In this document: positions 30,404-43,267 of the stretch, piece by piece
How the letters are laid out: every line of letters starts with the position of its first letter
How positions within the stretch are numbered: position 1 is the stretch's first letter
NCBI RefSeq assembly: GCF_014698995.1
Contig: NZ_JACWZZ010000002.1
Coordinates: 930,001 to 994,000, forward strand
Source of the DNA: Hymenobacter duratus
Lineage (GTDB): Bacteria; Bacteroidota; Bacteroidia; Cytophagales; Hymenobacteraceae
Length of the DNA: 64,000 bases
Reading direction: 5' to 3'
The notes under the pieces: model-generated
Seen by the model: the letters and a program-made list of their open reading frames with translations, nothing else
Told to the model about the DNA's origin: nothing
The model's database searches: none
Made by a program: the position numbers and the translations under genes

Positions 30404-30622
30404 CCGAATCACTCCACACGGTTACTTAGCATTCCTATCCACAAACAGCACCTTACTAACTCATAAACAGCTCTATATCTATATTATCTGACGTTGCATG
30501 TTTTTCTTCATTGAGGACTCAACGCCCAAAAACTGATGCCTGAGCACGCCAAGCCATGTGTAAAAAACAGTATCTTAGGGCCTTCTATTTTCTTTGACTT
30601 TTCCATTTCCAAAGCACAATTT

Positions 30623-33600
30623 ATGTTGCAAACCTTTACCTCCTCGCGGCGCACATGGCGGCCGGCCCTGTTGGGCGGCTTGCTGTTGGCGGCGGCCGGG
30701 TCGCCATTATCGGTGTCGGCTCAACGCGTGTTGTGGGCCGATGCGACCGAAGCATTGCCTACCGCTGCCCGCACCACCACCCAAGCCCTGCGGCAGTACC
30801 GTTCCGTAACTATGCAGCTGCCCGCCATGCGCGCGGCGCTGGCAGCGGCTCCGGCCGAAGCCGGTTCGGGCGCCCGCAATTCCAGCACGGTTATCTCGCT
30901 ACCGCTGCCCGATGGCAGCTCGCAGCGCTTCCGCATCGTGCAGGTGCCCGTGATGGCACCACAGCTGGCGGCAAAGTACCCGCAGATCCGCACGTATGAG
31001 GCGCAGGGCATCGATGACCCCAGCGCCACGGCCCGCCTCGATATTTCGCCGGCTGGCTTCCACGCCATGATTACGACTGCGTCGCGCACCATCTTCATTG
31101 ATCCAGTTTCGCCGACCGACAATACCCACCTGGTGTTCGACCGGACGTCCATGAACAAGGACAACGTACGGTTCGAGTGCCTGACTGCAGGTTCGGCTAT
31201 TGGGGCAGCAGGCTCGGTGCTGACACCGCCGATGCCCGCAGCCATTCCGAACGGCGCGACGCTGAAAACCTATCGGCTGGCCGTTTCCTGTACCGGTGAG
31301 TATGCAGTAGCTGTGTGCGCTCCGGCTGCACCCACCACGGCCCTGACTCTCTCTAAAATCGTTACGTCGGTGAACCGGGTTAGCGGTGTGTACGAGAAGG
31401 AAATTGCGGCCCGCCTGGTGCTGATTCCGAAAAACGACACGCTTGTGTTCCTGAACGGCACTACGGACCCCTTCACGAACAACTCCTCAACTACGCTGCT
31501 GACGGAAAATCAGGCTGTCGTGACGGCCCGTATCGGTGCTGCCAACTACGACATCGGCCACGTATTTGCTACTGGTGATGGTGGCGTAGCCCAGCTGCGC
31601 AGCCTGTGCGCTTCCAACGGCAAAGCCCGCGGTATGACTGGCCGGCCTGCTCCCTTCGGTGACGCCTTCGACATCGACTACGTAGCCCACGAAATCGGCC
31701 ACCAGTTTGGCGGCAACCACACATTCAACGGTACGATTGGCTCGTGCAGCGGCGGTAACCGCTCGGCTTCCGCAGCCTACGAGCCGGGCTCCGGCACGAC
31801 CATCATGGCCTACGCCGGCATCTGTGGCGCCGACAACACGCAGAACAACTCCGATCCGTATTTCCACTCCTATAGCTTTGATGAGCTGGTAGCCCACATG
31901 GCGGCTGGCGGCAACTGCGGGGTGAACACGCCTACCGGCAACAATGCGCCGGTGGTAAACGCCGGGGCCAACTACCGCATTCCGCTCAGCACGCCGTTCG
32001 AGCTGACTGGTTCGGCTACCGACCCCAATGGTGATGCCCTGACGTATAGCTGGGAGCAATTCAACCTGGGGCCGGGCGGTGCTCCTAACTCGCCGACCGG
32101 CGATGCGCCGATTTTCCGCGCCTACGCTCCGGTGGCCTCCCCTACCCGTACTTTCCCTGCTACCCTGACGCCAACCGGCGCGCTGGGCGCGCTGCTCACC
32201 AACACGCAGGTGCGCGGCGAGATTCTTCCCTCGTACGCCCGCCGGCTGGTATTCCGCTTTGTAGCTCGCGACAACCGCGTAGGCGGCGGCGGGGTTGACT
32301 ATGACTCGATGAACGTAGCTGTAGTTGGTACGGCCGGTCCGTTCCTGGTAACGCTCCCCAACACGGCTTCGGCCTCGTGGCAGGCAGGTGCACCGCAGCA
32401 GGTGGCCTGGGATGTAGCCAACACGACTGCTGCGCCCATCAGCGCTGCCAACGTAGACATTCTGCTCTCAACTGATGGTGGCCGCACGTTCCCTACGACT
32501 CTGCTGGCTAACACGCCCAACGACGGCTACGAGAATGTGACGGTGCCTGCATCCGTGGCCGCTACCACTAGCGCCCGTATCAAGGTGAAGGCTTCCGGCA
32601 ACGTGTTCTTCGACCTGTCGAACCAGAATTTCTCTATCACGAACTCCGGCGCGCCTACCTTCTTCCTGGCTCCGGTAGCTACGCAGATTGCTGCATTTTG
32701 CCCGGGTGCTTCTTCCACGTTTGACCTCAACGTGGGTCAGATTCAGTCGTTCACCGGTCAGGTAGCGTTGTCGGCCACCAGCCTGCCAGCAGGCATAACG
32801 GTGACGTATAACAACGCCACAACGGCGGCCGGCACCACGGTGCAGGCAACGGTTGCGGTAGCCGCTGGCACCGCTGGCGGTACGTACACTATCAACCTGA
32901 CGGGCACGAGCGGCAGCATCACCCAGACGCAACAGTACACGTTCACGGTACTGCCCAGCGCTACTGCCGCCGCTGTTCCGGTAAGCCCGGTTGCAGCCCA
33001 GGTGGTGAGCCCCCGGCCCCGCCTGACCTGGAGCGCTGTGCCGAACGCAACGGCTTACGAGGTACAGGTAGCGTCTGATGCCAGCTTCGCAAACGTGCTG
33101 CTCACCCAGACCAACGTAACGGGCACCAACTTCACGGTGGCTTCGCCGGCGCTGACCACGGGCACGACTTACTACTGGCGCGTACGCGGCACCAGCCCCT
33201 GTGGTGTTGCGCCTTACTCGGTAATTTCTTCGTTCCAGATTGGCACGCTGTCCTGCTTCACGGCTGTTGCAACGCAGATTCCGGTGAACATTCCGTTTGG
33301 TGCTACGCCAACCGTAACGTCGGTTATCAATGTGCAGAATGGCGAGCGGGTGGGCAACATCCGTATCCGCAACCTGGCCATCACGCACCCCGATGTAAGT
33401 GAGCTGACCATTTCGCTGACGAACCCAGCAGGCCGCACGGCCGTGTTGCTGGCGAATGCCTGCCCCGGCACTTCCGATATCAACCTGACGCTGAGCGAAG
33501 ATGCTGCTTCGGCCATCACCTGCCCGCTTACCGGCGGCGCTACCTACCGCCCGGCCAACTCGCTGGCTAACCTGCTCAACGATGCTGCCACCGGCAACTG

Positions 33601-34249
33601 GACGCTGAGCATTGCCGACAACAACCCGAGCAATGGTGGCCAATTGACTGGCTGGACGCTGGAGCTTTGCACCCTGGCTGAGCCGCCTGCAGCACCAGCC
33701 TCCCTGACGGCTCTGCTGAACGGCGTAACGAACAACCGCGCAAACGTAGACCTGATCTGGCTGGACAATGCCACCAACGAAACCGGCTACCAGGTAGAAC
33801 GCACGGGCGCTGGCAACACCGTCTACACCCTTCTGGCTACGTTGCCCGCTAACTCGACTTACTATGCGGACCAGATCAGCGGCGCCAATGGCAATTACTG
33901 CTACCGCGTACGGGCCATTAGCGGGGCTGCCACTTCGGCTTACTCCAATGAGGCCTGCGTTGGCGTAACAACACTGGCTACCCAGAACGAAGCGCTGCTG
34001 CGGGGTGTGGAAGTATATCCTAACCCCAGCAATGGCCTGTTCCAGGTGAAAGTAGACAATGCCCAGCGTGGTACTGTTACGCTGCGCGTGACGGATGCTC
34101 TGGGCCGCACGGTGAGCCGCACTGCGCTCAGCAAGGCAGGCGCGCCGCTCCAGCACGCTCTTGACCTGAGCAAGCTGAGCAGCGGTGTATACCAGCTGCA
34201 CCTAGATATGCCGGAAGGCACCGCCGTAGTGAAACTGCTGAAGCAATAA
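30623..34249 (+). CDS. T9SS-exported metzincin metalloprotease with P domain
   Basis: The 1208-residue protein starts at MLQTFTSSRR with a signal peptide (cut near LSVSAQ). After a propeptide-like stretch comes a reprolysin-type zinc protease domain with HEIGHQFGGNH at residues 356-366 and a Met-turn in TIMAYAGIC. Downstream are an Ig/PKD-like module (about 440-570), an FN3-like module (about 790-870), a proprotein-convertase P domain (about 876-1016), a second FN3 (about 1020-1115), and a T9SS type A sorting domain (about 1128-1208: EVYPNPSNGLFQVKV, closing VVKLLKQ). It should be secreted and act on extracellular protein. Possible -7 sequences at 30589-30596 match 7 of 8. Confidence 0.92.
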   Translation: MLQTFTSSRRTWRPALLGGLLLAAAGSPLSVSAQRVLWADATEALPTAARTTTQALRQYRSVTMQLPAMRAALAAAPAEAGSGARNSSTVISLPLPDGSSQRFRIVQVPVMAPQLAAKYPQIRTYEAQGIDDPSATARLDISPAGFHAMITTASRTIFIDPVSPTDNTHLVFDRTSMNKDNVRFECLTAGSAIGAAGSVLTPPMPAAIPNGATLKTYRLAVSCTGEYAVAVCAPAAPTTALTLSKIVTSVNRVSGVYEKEIAARLVLIPKNDTLVFLNGTTDPFTNNSSTTLLTENQAVVTARIGAANYDIGHVFATGDGGVAQLRSLCASNGKARGMTGRPAPFGDAFDIDYVAHEIGHQFGGNHTFNGTIGSCSGGNRSASAAYEPGSGTTIMAYAGICGADNTQNNSDPYFHSYSFDELVAHMAAGGNCGVNTPTGNNAPVVNAGANYRIPLSTPFELTGSATDPNGDALTYSWEQFNLGPGGAPNSPTGDAPIFRAYAPVASPTRTFPATLTPTGALGALLTNTQVRGEILPSYARRLVFRFVARDNRVGGGGVDYDSMNVAVVGTAGPFLVTLPNTASASWQAGAPQQVAWDVANTTAAPISAANVDILLSTDGGRTFPTTLLANTPNDGYENVTVPASVAATTSARIKVKASGNVFFDLSNQNFSITNSGAPTFFLAPVATQIAAFCPGASSTFDLNVGQIQSFTGQVALSATSLPAGITVTYNNATTAAGTTVQATVAVAAGTAGGTYTINLTGTSGSITQTQQYTFTVLPSATAAAVPVSPVAAQVVSPRPRLTWSAVPNATAYEVQVASDASFANVLLTQTNVTGTNFTVASPALTTGTTYYWRVRGTSPCGVAPYSVISSFQIGTLSCFTAVATQIPVNIPFGATPTVTSVINVQNGERVGNIRIRNLAITHPDVSELTISLTNPAGRTAVLLANACPGTSDINLTLSEDAASAITCPLTGGATYRPANSLANLLNDAATGNWTLSIADNNPSNGGQLTGWTLELCTLAEPPAAPASLTALLNGVTNNRANVDLIWLDNATNETGYQVERTGAGNTVYTLLATLPANSTYYADQISGANGNYCYRVRAISGAATSAYSNEACVGVTTLATQNEALLRGVEVYPNPSNGLFQVKVDNAQRGTVTLRVTDALGRTVSRTALSKAGAPLQHALDLSKLSSGVYQLHLDMPEGTAVVKLLKQ

Positions 34250-34409: not shown

Positions 34410-36593
34410 CTAGAACCGGTAGCGGACCTGGGCTTTGAATTCGGTACGGCGAGGTCCCTGAATTTCCTCCAGGCCTGAGCCGACAGTGTTCTGGTAGCGG
34501 TAGTGGGTTTCGGCCAGCCGCAGCCAGAACGTGAGGTGACGGCTGCAGTTGATTTCGGCAATACCATATATGCGCGTGCCCTGCCCCGAAAGTGCCGGCA
34601 CCGAAAACGCGTACAGCACGTCCTGCTCAAACACGTATTGCCGGGTATCGTAGCTGTCGGTATCGAAGATGGCATAGCGGGCCGTGAGACGCAGCCGACG
34701 GCCTACCGCAACAGAAGCGTCCTGCGCCAGTACATAGCCCCGCTGCCATGGGCCATTATCTTCGCGGTAGCGGCTGGCCTGCACCCGTGTGCGCAGCCCC
34801 AGAATGAGCGTCGGGTTAGCATCGTAGTACAGCAGCAGACTCTGGCGCGTAGTCGGTACGGGCAGCGGCGCCGGCTGGTCAGTGCTGGCATCATAGTCTT
34901 TCTGGCGGCTCCGGATCTGAGCGTAGAGCAGGCTAGTTTTCGTGGGCGAGTACGCCACTCGTGCCAGCCAGTCGTGCCCCGCCGAAGGCGCACCTACCCC
35001 ATATTTCAGCCATGGAAACCGGAACTGGTCGTAGTAAGCCGACACTTCCCACCGGGCTACCGGCCGCAGCTTCAGCCCCAGGTACAGGCCGCTTTCGTTG
35101 ATGTTGCGGGTGTTTTCACTCAAGGCATTGCCATAGAGCGTATGAAAGTCGCGGGAGTAGTGCCGCACCAGCGCCGACACATCAATAGTAGGTGCGAGAC
35201 TGGCCAGCACGCCGTTTACCGTGCCCCACCCGCCGCTGCTGCTGCGCGCCGTTTCGCCAAACAGCAGCACATTGCCCCGTACGTAGCTGTAGTGCGCCCC
35301 CAAGGCCAGATTGTGAGTTCCTCGAAACTCGTATTGGTTGTACAGTTCGGGCCGACGCTGAATGGCCTTATCGAAATGCGTATCGACGGCCGTGAGGCCG
35401 GCTGACAGGTGGCCGCTGCGGCTGGTGTAGCCCAGGTTACCGCCCGCTACGGTTTCGCGCAGCGTCTGGCGGTTGGCCAGCTCACTGGCCGTCCGGTGAA
35501 AACCAGTCAGCAGAAAACCTGACGAAAACTCATCAAACTCCGCCAGCGAGTCGGCGGCCTGCTGCACGTTGGCATCTACCCGCTTGCGCGATACGAAGCC
35601 GGTAGCGCGCACCGTAGGCGACAAACTGACGGTAGCAGCCGCGCCCCGGAAGAAGGTGCTTTCCAGGATGGAAGAATACGGCCGCACGCCCACCGAACTG
35701 CGGCGCAGCGTGGTAATGGTTTCGGCCCCCTTGCCTACCTGCAGCCCCGACGACAGCAGCAGCCCCTGCCCAAACTGCAGCTGATAGTCGCCGACGGCCA
35801 GCGTGCGGAGCTTGCCCCGTTCCTGCAGCACAAAGTGCGCCGACAGGAAATCGGGGCCGTAGGTGCGGGCCGTGGGGTTCCAGAGCAACTGTTCGCCCGC
35901 GTCTTTTTCGGCAGTTATGCCCAGGCTGAAGTCTTTGGCGTGGCTGACGCGGTAGCGCAGCATCAGCTTATCGGGCGAGCCTAAGTAACGGGTAGGCCCC
36001 TGGCCCAGGCTGTCGGTGGGGGCAGTGGTGTAGCCTTTGCGGGTTTGCAGCACCCGCTCGTAGCGCATAAACAGCGCATTGTTGTCTTCCTTGAACACCC
36101 GCTGCCACAACGGCCCGCGCAACGCATTAGCGCCCCCGGCAGCCTGCGCCGTCACGAAAGGGGCTATGCGGTAGATACTACGCAAATCGAAGCTCGGAAC
36201 AGCCTGCAGCTCATACAGGCTGAGCAGCGGACCGCGCTGCTGGCGGTATTCCAGCAGCTTACTGATCTGGTTTTCGGACAGCAGCAGCAGGCCCCGCAGG
36301 TCTTCGCGGGAAGCTGAGTTCAGGCTGAGCGGCGTCTGGTAGTACTGCAGCAGCGTTTCGTACAGGTCCTCGTAGGGTACCTGGTCACTCTGGATTTCAG
36401 CAAACAGCTCCTGCGTCAGCCGGTCCAGGTCGGCGGCGGGGCGCACGTACTCCTGCGCCTGGGCTGCCAGCGGCAACAGCAGAGCCAGTACCGCCGCAAC
36501 CCGCCACTTTGCGCAGCCAGTTTTAGTATGAGGCAACATGGTGCGAGGCGCGAAACCAAACGCGCTGCACTGCGCTACGCGGGCTGACCTCAT
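34410..36593 (-). CDS. Outer-membrane barrel protein with N-terminal helix-hairpin-helix (ComEA-like) domain
   Basis: The 727-residue protein has a signal peptide (hydrophobic AAVLALLLPLAAQAQ) and a helix-hairpin-helix region at about residues 88-145 (PLSLNSASREDLRGLLLL, then QISKLLEYRQQRGPLLSLYE). This is the ComEA-type fold that binds DNA backbones. About 500 residues of alternating strands follow, ending in FKAQVRYRF, which looks like a beta-barrel. The ATG at 36593 overlaps the TGA of the upstream gene (ATGA), pointing to coupled translation; a start at 36539 would give a more usual signal length. It follows the PorV/PorQ-like gene in one operon. A DNA-binding role is inference only. Confidence 0.8.
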   Translation of the reverse strand: MRSARVAQCSAFGFAPRTMLPHTKTGCAKWRVAAVLALLLPLAAQAQEYVRPAADLDRLTQELFAEIQSDQVPYEDLYETLLQYYQTPLSLNSASREDLRGLLLLSENQISKLLEYRQQRGPLLSLYELQAVPSFDLRSIYRIAPFVTAQAAGGANALRGPLWQRVFKEDNNALFMRYERVLQTRKGYTTAPTDSLGQGPTRYLGSPDKLMLRYRVSHAKDFSLGITAEKDAGEQLLWNPTARTYGPDFLSAHFVLQERGKLRTLAVGDYQLQFGQGLLLSSGLQVGKGAETITTLRRSSVGVRPYSSILESTFFRGAAATVSLSPTVRATGFVSRKRVDANVQQAADSLAEFDEFSSGFLLTGFHRTASELANRQTLRETVAGGNLGYTSRSGHLSAGLTAVDTHFDKAIQRRPELYNQYEFRGTHNLALGAHYSYVRGNVLLFGETARSSSGGWGTVNGVLASLAPTIDVSALVRHYSRDFHTLYGNALSENTRNINESGLYLGLKLRPVARWEVSAYYDQFRFPWLKYGVGAPSAGHDWLARVAYSPTKTSLLYAQIRSRQKDYDASTDQPAPLPVPTTRQSLLLYYDANPTLILGLRTRVQASRYREDNGPWQRGYVLAQDASVAVGRRLRLTARYAIFDTDSYDTRQYVFEQDVLYAFSVPALSGQGTRIYGIAEINCSRHLTFWLRLAETHYRYQNTVGSGLEEIQGPRRTEFKAQVRYRF

Positions 36594-37444
36594 GGCTGCT
36601 TCCCGCTGAAAGCCAGACTAACGCCCAGGTGCTGGCTTAGTCCCAGCGCCGTATGCCAGGCCGCCGCATAGTCGATTTGGAGTGCACCGGCCTGGAAGCC
36701 TACGCCTCCGGTGGTTTCCTGCGTGAGGGTGCGCAGCCCGGCCCGCAAGGCCAGTGCGTCAATCACGCGGTATTCCAGGCCGGCCTTAAAATCGGCTGAC
36801 TGCTCTACTTCCTTCTCGGTTTCGATGTTGAGCAGCACTTTGGCAGTAGGCCGATACGAAAGGCCCGCCTTGAGCACGGTGGGCACCCGCTCCTGCTGAT
36901 ACTCGGCCAGTCTGGCCTGGTTCAGGTTGTAGAGGTAGGCCCCGAATACCAGCCGCTTGGGTATCAGCTCAGCCTGCCCGCCCAACGATACGGCTACCGC
37001 CCGCTTGCTGCCCAGCCCTTCGATGCTGACCTGCAGCATATCTACCCGCCCGCCGATGCTCACGAGGCCGCCCCGGTAGCCGTAGCCGGCCCCTACGCGC
37101 TGCTCGCTGTAGAGCTTGCCACCAAACCGTTCCGCTTCAAACCCCACGACCCCACGGCTGGCCTGGCCGTTCTCTATCTTGCCTAAAGGCACCGCGGCTG
37201 CCAGCGCTACCGTATTCAGAGCCGATAATAAGTAGCGGTTTTCGGCGTACACGCCCACCGTCGGGGCGTTGAGCTGGCCCAGTCCGGCCACGTTATTGCC
37301 AATGGCCCATACGTCGCTGAGCGTGACGGAAGCATTGCCGAGGGCTGCCGCCCGGGCGCCTCTTGTGCCGGGCCCATTGCCCTGAGCATAACCTGATACT
37401 GCCAGCAAAAGCAAGCCACCAGAGCACACGTAATTCTTCAGCAT
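36590..37444 (-). CDS. PorV/PorQ-like outer-membrane beta-barrel protein
   Basis: The 284-residue protein has a signal peptide (LLLLAVSGYAQ). Its mature N-terminus, GARAAALGNASVTLSDVWAI followed by NNVAGLGQL, is the hallmark of the PorV/PorQ (FadL-like) barrel group. PorV takes part in T9SS export, shuttling cargo at the outer membrane; many relatives of this kind have no known role. It is the first gene of a two-gene operon, with its stop overlapping the start of the HhH-domain barrel gene. A good promoter lies just upstream. I would not call it PorV itself, only a member of that family. Confidence 0.75.
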   Translation of the reverse strand: MLKNYVCSGGLLLLAVSGYAQGNGPGTRGARAAALGNASVTLSDVWAIGNNVAGLGQLNAPTVGVYAENRYLLSALNTVALAAAVPLGKIENGQASRGVVGFEAERFGGKLYSEQRVGAGYGYRGGLVSIGGRVDMLQVSIEGLGSKRAVAVSLGGQAELIPKRLVFGAYLYNLNQARLAEYQQERVPTVLKAGLSYRPTAKVLLNIETEKEVEQSADFKAGLEYRVIDALALRAGLRTLTQETTGGVGFQAGALQIDYAAAWHTALGLSQHLGVSLAFSGKQP

Positions 37445-37466
37445 AGCTATATAAAATAAGACGAAT

Positions 37467-37497
37467 GAAATGTAGGATAAAAACCCTGATTACCAAA
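37467..37497 (-). promoter_or_regulatory. Promoter of the PorV-like/HhH-barrel operon
   Basis: On the reverse strand TTTG (37497-37494) is followed by 19 bases and TACATTTC (37474-37467), 7 of 8 to the -7 consensus. It ends 22 bases before the ATG at 37444. Confidence 0.7.
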
Positions 37498-41470: not shown

Positions 41471-42907
41471 CTACTCGCGCAGCACCCGGGCCACGTAGCG
41501 GCGGCCATCGGGGGCGGTGCCCGTGAGTAGGTACAGGCCGGCCGGCACTTCACCCAGAGGTAGGGCTTGCCCCTCCGTGCTGGTTACAGCGCGGGTAGCC
41601 GGCCAGTGGCGCACAGTGCGGCCCAGCGCATCGCGCAGCACTAGCTCACCGGCCAGGGGCTGGCCACTCCGGACACGCAGCTGCGACTGCCCCGCTCCCA
41701 CCGGATTGGGCCAGGCTGCTAAGGCCAGCACCGGCTGCCGGGCGGGCGCCTGGGTACTGAGGGTGCGCCAGGCCGCTTGCCGCCCAAAAAACAGGTCGGC
41801 AAGACCCAGCGGCCCTTGCGTGGCGTAGCCGCTGAACACGTAGTTGCCCGTACCGGCTTCCACTTCCAGCCCGTTCACAAACTCGTCGCCGCCCGTGCGA
41901 TAGAGCACCGTATCGCGTAGCACCTGGCCGGTGGGCGTCACCTTGCTCAGGTACACCCGGGTGCCGCTGTTGGCGTACACGCCCCCGGCTACCACCAGGT
42001 TGCCATCGGGCAGCGGCCGCACTAGTCGGGCCGAGCCGTAGGTGCGGAAGCCATTGGGCGCGGTGTAAGGCAGCAGCCTGGTCCAAAGGGTATCCAGGGC
42101 GGCATTGAAGCGAATGAGCCGGCCGTCCTGGCAGGCCAGGTAGCCGCTTTGCACCGGCATTGGCAAAACGCTATTCAGGAAACTAGAAGCTCTACCATAC
42201 AACGGCTTCACCTGATCTACTACGCCAGTCTCCGTCAGATGTAGCAGCTTTCGTTCATTCCCAACAACGCCTTTTGAATTCAGTACCCAGTACCCGCCTC
42301 GGCTCGAGTTTTCTTTGAATAGAGCTGTAACATTACCAATATCAGTCGCATCATACGTTATATTGGTTTGGGCCAGTACCTGACCCGCGGAGCTAATTTT
42401 CAGCCATTGCGGAAAAGTGTTCAGCGAACCGGTCAACACGAAATTCCCATCGTTGCCAAGTATCAGACTGGAATAGAAATCACCCGTTGGGCCGTTGGTA
42501 TAGCGGGTCCAGAGCGTATCGCCTTGCGGAGTTAACAGCACCAGCATGGCTTCATCAATGAAGCCTCCGGTAGTACGGTCGCCGCCGGAAGTGGCAACAA
42601 GTACTTGCCCCGCTGCATTTTCGCACACCGCCCGTACCTGCACGGAAGTGAAGTGCGGCAGTTTTCGCGCGCGGGTCCAGAGGGTGTCACCTAACGCATT
42701 TGTACGCACCAAGAAGAGTCGTCCATCAGCCTGAGGACCGGCCTTACTTTGGCTTCCTACCACCAAATAGCCTCCACTCTGCATAGCCGTTATATACCCT
42801 CCCATTTCCTCTCCCGCCGAGCCATACACACGCTGTTGTAGTAACTGCGCCTTGGCGGGCCAGGCCAGTAGCAATATAAGCCAGCAGAATCCAATGATGC
42901 GTTTCAT
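41471..42907 (-). CDS. T9SS cargo protein, beta-propeller-like
   Basis: The 478-residue protein starts at MKRIIGFCWLILLLAWPAKA, a clear signal peptide. The body is made of repeats with the form 'GDTLWTR' (GDTLWTRARKLP, GDTLWTRYTNG, LDTLWTRLLPY) and GYLVVGSQSKAG-type strands, as in seven-bladed propellers with delta-60-like repeats. It ends in a T9SS type A sorting domain (AWPNPVGAGQSQLRVRSG, VLRDALGRTVRHW, GEVPAGLYLLTG). It is exported and attached to the surface or released; its binding partner is unknown. The middle (about 42150-42450) is poorer in GC than its flanks. Confidence 0.85.
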   Translation of the reverse strand: MKRIIGFCWLILLLAWPAKAQLLQQRVYGSAGEEMGGYITAMQSGGYLVVGSQSKAGPQADGRLFLVRTNALGDTLWTRARKLPHFTSVQVRAVCENAAGQVLVATSGGDRTTGGFIDEAMLVLLTPQGDTLWTRYTNGPTGDFYSSLILGNDGNFVLTGSLNTFPQWLKISSAGQVLAQTNITYDATDIGNVTALFKENSSRGGYWVLNSKGVVGNERKLLHLTETGVVDQVKPLYGRASSFLNSVLPMPVQSGYLACQDGRLIRFNAALDTLWTRLLPYTAPNGFRTYGSARLVRPLPDGNLVVAGGVYANSGTRVYLSKVTPTGQVLRDTVLYRTGGDEFVNGLEVEAGTGNYVFSGYATQGPLGLADLFFGRQAAWRTLSTQAPARQPVLALAAWPNPVGAGQSQLRVRSGQPLAGELVLRDALGRTVRHWPATRAVTSTEGQALPLGEVPAGLYLLTGTAPDGRRYVARVLRE

Positions 42908-43045
42908 AGCAAATAAGCAAAGCTGGATAGCCATGGGGGTAAGCAGTAATGATACAATATAGCCGAACGCAATGAAATTGGGCGCACCAGTACCTTCGCC
43001 CGCACCTTCCGGATTTATTCCGCACCGTTTGCGGTTCTTTGCGGC

Positions 43046-43267
43046 ATGTCGTCTTTGTTTCGTCAGCTTTTTCTGGGGCTGCTGTGGGTATACCGGCACC
43101 TGATTTCGCCCCTTACGCCGGCAAGCTGCCGCTACACACCCACCTGCTCGGCCTACGCGGTGGAGGCCATTGAGAAGTACGGCCCCTGGCGCGGCGGCCG
43201 GCTGGCCCTGCGCCGCATCGGCCGCTGCCACCCCTGGGGCGGCCACGGCCACGACCCTGTTCCGTAG
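43046..43267 (+). CDS. yidD: Membrane protein insertion efficiency factor YidD
   Basis: The 73-residue protein matches the YidD family from end to end: a short hydrophobic N-terminus ([15 protein letters not shown]), [37 protein letters not shown] and GGHGHDPVP, with the conserved cysteines. It helps the YidC/Sec pathway insert inner-membrane proteins. In many bacteria it lies by rnpA and rpmH; here it is isolated, divergent from the T9SS cargo gene. Confidence 0.95.

Follow-up and report, generated by a model that had tools for sequence, protein, structure and literature searches.

What do two overlapping genes at positions 34410-37497 of a 64,000-nucleotide stretch of Hymenobacter duratus DNA (contig NZ_JACWZZ010000002.1; "the window") do for the cell? 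The first encodes a small barrel resembling PorV/PorQ, and the second a 727-residue barrel protein with a helix-hairpin-helix (HhH) domain. An initial annotation, made from the sequence alone, suggested that the second protein could bind or pass DNA at the outer membrane, or bind another polymer. On sequence and prediction, the 727-residue protein may form the outer-membrane component of a machine by which Bacteroidota and relatives take up DNA without pili, a tentative assignment whose chances are close to even. It is the best single reading, with an accessory of the type IX secretion system (T9SS) and another kind of transporter as serious rivals.

A role in DNA uptake is favored because the HhH-barrel is nearly exclusive with the RA0C_RS04915 type of protein, which Riemerella needs for transformation, and because comEC lies directly downstream of the barrel gene in one family (f17). 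It is also favored because seven genomes, all from one family, of the eight that lack ComEC have no match to the barrel. The predicted 24-strand barrel, of usher size, is wide, and in 71 of 75 members the positions of its strands that face inward carry a net positive charge (the inward side being set by family hydropathy, with no control barrel). Finally, the route of DNA over the outer membrane in P. gingivalis is described as unclear in the accessible portion of PMC11532111.

Predicted structure of the HhH-barrel protein

The HhH-barrel gene runs from 36593 to 34410 on the minus strand. The sole Pfam family above threshold in its product is HHH_3 (PF12836), which matches residues 88-148 (36150-36332, minus strand) with 27.5 bits against a cut-off of 27. 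AlphaFold2 with an alignment of 75 sequences gave a model with a mean predicted local distance difference test score (pLDDT) of 88.2 and a predicted template modeling score of 0.85; with 15 sequences the model was poor (pLDDT 64). The predicted helices at residues 96-100, 107-120, 126-131 and 137-146 follow the order of a ComEA-type (HhH)2 domain, the hairpins of which are degenerate. Residues 172-726 (34416-36080, minus strand) contain 24 predicted strands of at least nine residues, forming a putative outer-membrane barrel, and the C-terminal residue of the protein is phenylalanine. The initial annotation had described an HhH region at about residues 88-145 joined to a long beta-rich domain ending in an aromatic residue, and had suggested structure prediction as a check. 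The model shows both the HhH fold and the barrel, in agreement with that description.

Fold searches of solved structures found no close structural relative of the barrel. The matches were to generic barrels, TonB-dependent receptors and the alginate exporter AlgE among them. The FimD and PapC ushers are the best match in length to the whole barrel (359-387 residues, root-mean-square deviation 3.8-5.0, Z 13-15; for FimD, 366 residues, 3.9 and 15.1, respectively), whereas AlgE scores higher over a part of it (Z 17.9, 280 residues). The resemblance to the ushers lies in the size and course of the 24-strand barrel. They differ in that the protein described here has an HhH domain at its N-terminus and no Pfam usher match, and no chaperone or pilus genes were seen in the loci. 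The common 24-strand size is no evidence of descent. A sequence search of the PDB gave no relative of the barrel; its top match, 6hiv (E 0.003), falls on an unrelated stretch, and the next matches are to the HhH of mitochondrial transcription elongation factor, with E 0.12 or worse.

Distribution of the barrel, its counterpart and comEC

The barrel is present in 36 of the 39 genomes of the genus and order. In an even sample of 296 genomes of the phylum, it is present in 225 at 1e-5 and in 200 at 1e-40. A strong barrel is defined here as a match at 1e-40 or 1e-80 and the RS04915 type as a match of 500 bits, both cut-offs having been chosen after viewing the gaps between scores. The initial annotation had ranked the pair as the window's strongest candidate for a system with no known role. 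The pair is genuine, and it is both conserved and old; its occurrence across the phylum rules out a peculiarity of one window. No publication on the HhH-barrel was found among openly licensed PMC papers, subscription papers and preprints being outside the search. One barrel frame in family f18 (G359:C1:832966-834789) has 13 in-frame TGA codons, no TAA or TAG, and a score below that of its peers. The SprA frame of the same genome is free of stops; the barrel frame may have decayed in an uncommon way, or the cause may be stranger.

According to the accessible portion of PMC8459023, transformation of Riemerella anatipestifer requires ComEC, DprA, ComF, RecA and four more proteins, namely RS04915 (outer membrane, CarboxypepD_reg), RS04920 (DUF5689, DUF5017), RS02645 (three HhH) and RS09020 (DUF1343). 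Transposon mutants described there show that RS04915 and RS04920 are both necessary. Natural transformation is also routine in Chlorobaculum tepidum, a harmless laboratory strain (PMC3842273). Proteins of the RS04915 type were located by means of DUF5689, as the product of the adjoining upstream gene of about 860-950 residues. Both f20 members scanned have CarboxypepD_reg and a partner with DUF5689, in one case together with DUF5017. Full-length matches to the resulting profile (A4) exceed 500 bits, and the next best reaches 255. In the window genome the listed matches lie at C2:781-784 kb, away from the barrel.

The two proteins are alike in that both are outer-membrane barrels, known or predicted, whose genes are paired with that of another envelope protein, and organisms with the RS04915 type likewise carry ComEC and HhH proteins. 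By its distribution, the RS04915 type fills the niche that the HhH-barrel holds in other genomes. They are unrelated in sequence (hhalign probability 0.2% between the barrel profile A3 and A4). The RS04915 type is about 910 residues long and lacks HhH, and its partner is a DUF5689 protein and not a PorV-like barrel.

The distributions of the two are nearly exclusive. Among the 73 genomes of the window's class, 29 have the barrel (E 1e-80 or better) and 45 the RS04915 type (above 500 bits); 23 have only the barrel, 39 only the RS04915 type, six both and five neither (Fisher 8e-9). Family f18, sampled with 106 genomes of 86 genera, has the barrel in 45 and the RS04915 type in 49, and both in three (G129, G335 and G402) against 20.8 expected, with 15 having neither (Fisher 4e-13). 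Outside the class a strong barrel is present in 171 of 223 genomes, with no RS04915 type above 500 bits among the matches listed. A Pagel test on a combined SprA tree of 118 genomes gave a likelihood ratio of 23.9 (p 8e-5), the rate of gain of the RS04915 type being 3.7 without the barrel and 0.30 with it. The class tree comprised 58 of the 73 genomes, four without SprA being left out and f20 subsampled. The f18 tree comprised 60 of 97 newly listed genomes and nine others, after removal of second members of a genus, partial SprA sequences and then about every fifth genome; an exception was made for G402, a carrier of both barrels, which stayed in at the expense of G403.

The gene for ComEC immediately follows the barrel gene in f17, with gaps of 5 and 6 bases in loci L194 and L195 and an overlap of 7 in L196 (genomes G176, 5; G118, 6; G040, -7). 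In G160 the two genes adjoin by their coordinates. This arrangement is found in all four strong-barrel f17 genomes sampled, the three other f17 genomes having no strong barrel, and is probably the result of a single ancestral event. ComEC itself is present in 288 of the 296 genomes. The seven genomes that lack both ComEC and a barrel match all belong to f50; the eighth without ComEC, G297, has the barrel. The window genome (G000) has ComEC (E 4.5e-55) and a separate open reading frame (ORF) of 359 residues, which is matched three times by HHH_3, begins with a hydrophobic N-terminal stretch and includes a canonical GIG hairpin. No uptake route through a type IV pilus secretin is known from the accessible text of the open-access Bacteroidota papers searched.

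The ComEC frames are about 510-880 residues long, mostly below 740, in the window's class and mostly 790-900 in the other listed genomes, hinting at a domain difference. In G102 a convergent gene for NamZ (DUF1343), the family of Riemerella RS09020, lies 14 bases from the barrel gene (L201:6763-7986). It is the only NamZ neighbor, the downstream c17 genes considered as NamZ being isocitrate/isopropylmalate dehydrogenases. In five f18 loci (L197-L200 and L205) SusC-type genes lie 3' of the barrel gene, mostly followed by SusD.

The PorV-like partner and the locus

The first gene of the pair, at 37444-36590 on the minus strand, encodes 284 residues. Judged by its sequence, the product is a divergent relative of PorV/PorQ. 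It matches the NCBIfam family PorV_fam with E 1.2e-10 and 41.5 bits, under the cut-off of 90, and falls below the cut-offs of PorV (11.1 bits, 250 needed), PorQ (13.1 bits, 220 needed) and PorV2. The family is matched at E 0.001 or better by 34 of 37 orthologs. The PorV/PorQ-like label of the initial annotation is supported, below the family cut-off. The protein resembles PorV and PorQ in occurring mainly in T9SS-positive genomes and differs from them in that it tracks the HhH-barrel and not the presence of T9SS alone.

The coupling of the two genes exceeds chance, because a PorV-like neighbor is kept at 29 of 30 loci of the window genome and its relatives (L027 being the exception) and, upstream on the same strand, at 41 of 60 distant loci, two of the 41 being weak or 5 kb away. 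Of the 44 clustered loci that have both genes, 40 show an intergenic distance from -95 to +89 bases; in G117, G163, G308 and G325 both are present on separate contigs. Co-occurrence was measured in 80 chosen genomes, 44 with a strong barrel and 36 without any barrel match, a PorV-like protein being called at 130 bits or more, a cut-off likewise chosen after viewing the score gaps (at 100 bits the barrel-negative G135 would also count). An ortholog is present in 31 of the 44 and in two of the 36. Among SprA-positive genomes it accompanies the barrel in 30 of 34 and occurs in 2 of 35 that lack the barrel (Fisher 6e-13), and among SprA-negative barrel genomes it occurs in one of ten. The genes are not mostly apart, in keeping with the coupled pair that the initial annotation described. 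In L030 of a Hymenobacter relative (G009:C1:579088-581249) both genes of the pair are broken into two frames, as pseudogenes or through sequencing errors. In f18, folD is divergent before the PorV-like gene in both loci scanned.

In the window the two ORFs share ATGA at 36590-36593 (minus strand), as had been claimed. The barrel gene may instead start at a second ATG, at codon 19 (36539), which would make its signal peptide shorter and more typical and would do away with the overlap. The promoter-like site of the Bacteroidetes type that had been proposed, TTTG-N19-TACATTTC, lies at 37497-37467 on the minus strand and deviates by one base from the consensus TAnnTTTG. The window contains two copies of this relaxed form; the expectation from 50 single-base shuffles is 0.38. 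The site is present, and its statistics are suggestive only. The flanking genes at 30536-34249 and 41471-43252 encode a large reprolysin-like protein and a WD-like repeat protein, whose ends resemble T9SS sorting domains (PNP motifs, judged by eye).

Competing readings and a possible route for DNA

Part of the earlier case for DNA uptake was that a ComEA-type HhH domain binds DNA. ComEA is a small DNA binder, periplasmic or membrane-anchored, and GhG is the DNA-binding hairpin motif of HhH. The protein described here shares with ComEA (HHH_3, TIGR00426, TIGR01259) an (HhH)2 domain at the N-terminus. It differs in the fusion to a predicted 24-strand barrel, in its degenerate hairpins, and in scores far under the ComEA cut-offs (13.3 bits on TIGR01259, 152.35 needed). 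GhG is found in hairpin 1 of none of the 75 members and in hairpin 2 of 13, and the window protein has it in neither. The N-terminal domain is acidic, with a mean net charge of -10 over the 75 members and -5 in the window protein; for the HhH stretch the values are -1 and +1. The missing GhG hairpins and the acidic domain make the earlier argument weak, and the HhH domain as a proven DNA binder was dropped, since hairpins and charge weigh against it. From these features, a ComEA-like grip on DNA by the HhH domain of the window protein appears unlikely; an acidic gate inside a basic barrel is possible. That the barrel's own HhH domain is the receptor which draws DNA in, as first proposed, is very improbable. 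The HHH_3 match exceeds its cut-off, and one of the members with GhG in hairpin 2, L155, reaches 48.3 of the 53.1 bits needed on the ComEA repeat model TIGR00426, but most members have the motif in neither hairpin, the domain is not basic, and the genome has its separate three-HhH protein with a canonical hairpin.

The hairpins and charge weigh against the DNA-uptake reading in general, as do several properties of the distributions. The assignment to the RS04915 type relies on domains and paired genes rather than on an alignment with the Riemerella protein itself, and the two f18 members scanned lack CarboxypepD_reg. The relatedness of the genomes weakens the exclusivity counts. The state of the barrel changes only about six times on the class tree, five on the f18 tree and eight on the combined tree, and tests of the Pagel type may overstate an association if there are few events. 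Independent pairs show no significant association in the class (six pairs: opposite 2.9, same 0, no difference 3.1; median p 0.25), in f18 (three pairs on supported branches: opposite 2.1, same 0.2) or in the combined tree (six pairs: opposite 2.3, same 0.2, no difference 3.5; median p 0.5). The genomes with both barrels or neither are further exceptions. Co-occurrence with ComEC is weak evidence, because ComEC is nearly universal and was lost in one clade. No competence theme was found in the 95 neighbors scanned (A6, out of 165 picked) except comEC and the one NamZ gene.

These observations would also fit a general transporter or exporter of another polymer or of a nutrient, with the HhH as a structural plug or partner domain and the exclusivity arising from lineage and lifestyle. 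Such a role would accommodate the degenerate hairpins, the acidic domain and the non-significant pair tests; AlgE is among the best partial fold matches, and SusC/SusD genes lie downstream in four to five f18 loci, listed as a pair in three. Nevertheless, it is unlikely, as neighbors mostly differ between families with no common substrate theme, chance hardly explains how few f18 genomes hold both barrels, and comEC lies directly 3' of the barrel gene in f17.

The pair could instead be a T9SS accessory in which the PorV-like protein carries or anchors some cargo of that system and docks to the HhH-barrel in the outer membrane. This is rather unlikely, yet it accounts for the PorV/PorQ-like first gene and its near restriction to SprA-positive barrel genomes, and for two features of the neighborhood that also count against DNA uptake. 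The commonest further neighbor is porD, which adjoins the pair in divergent orientation at 33 of the 60 distant loci (PF16119/NF052317, confirmed in two members, the others assigned through blastp clustering), and of the 31 f18 genomes with sprA and the barrel on one contig, 22 have the two within 60 kb of each other. On the other hand, SprA is absent from 65 of the 200 strong-barrel genomes (62 in f30, two in f24, and G040 of f17) and present in 93 of the 96 genomes without a strong barrel, and loss of PorD in F. johnsoniae had no detectable effect on T9SS, according to the accessible portion of PMC10994853. The f30 genomes (1.6-3.3 Mb) appear Chlorobiaceae-like and f20 Flavobacteriaceae-like, from gene content and distribution among others. 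The 65 genomes rule out the barrel as a core part of T9SS. The presence of the barrel in SprA-free genomes, where the PorV-like gene is rare, suggests that the barrel works without T9SS and that the PorV-like protein belongs to T9SS-bearing cells.

DNA uptake, the favored reading, has thus lost the HhH-based argument with which it was first proposed and gained the exclusivity with the RS04915 type and the comEC adjacency. We infer the passage of DNA, the direction of transport, all contacts and the role of the PorV-like protein. The 727-residue barrel would do the job of the RA0C_RS04915/RS04920 pair in Riemerella. Double-stranded DNA would enter the periplasm through the large barrel and there be taken over by separate ComEA-type proteins (here the 359-residue three-HhH protein) and ComEC. 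At the periplasmic end, the HhH domain fused to the barrel would probably be a gate or a contact for a partner and, in this organism, not the main DNA binder. The PorV-like protein would probably serve the barrel only where T9SS exists, for example by bringing or holding a surface protein exported by T9SS.

In its fullest form, which is possible but somewhat doubtful, the barrel would be the long-sought pilus-independent DNA channel in much of Bacteroidota and in T9SS-less sister lineages. It would have an acidic HhH gate on the periplasmic side, be evolutionarily interchangeable with the unrelated RS04915/RS04920 and, in T9SS cells, have a dedicated PorV-like carrier, combining T9SS display and DNA uptake in one machine. 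If DNA uptake is indeed its role, the outer-membrane step of uptake would be the work of a single unnamed family of barrels that about two thirds of the sampled genomes possess, and two non-homologous solutions to that step would replace each other, with a link to T9SS.

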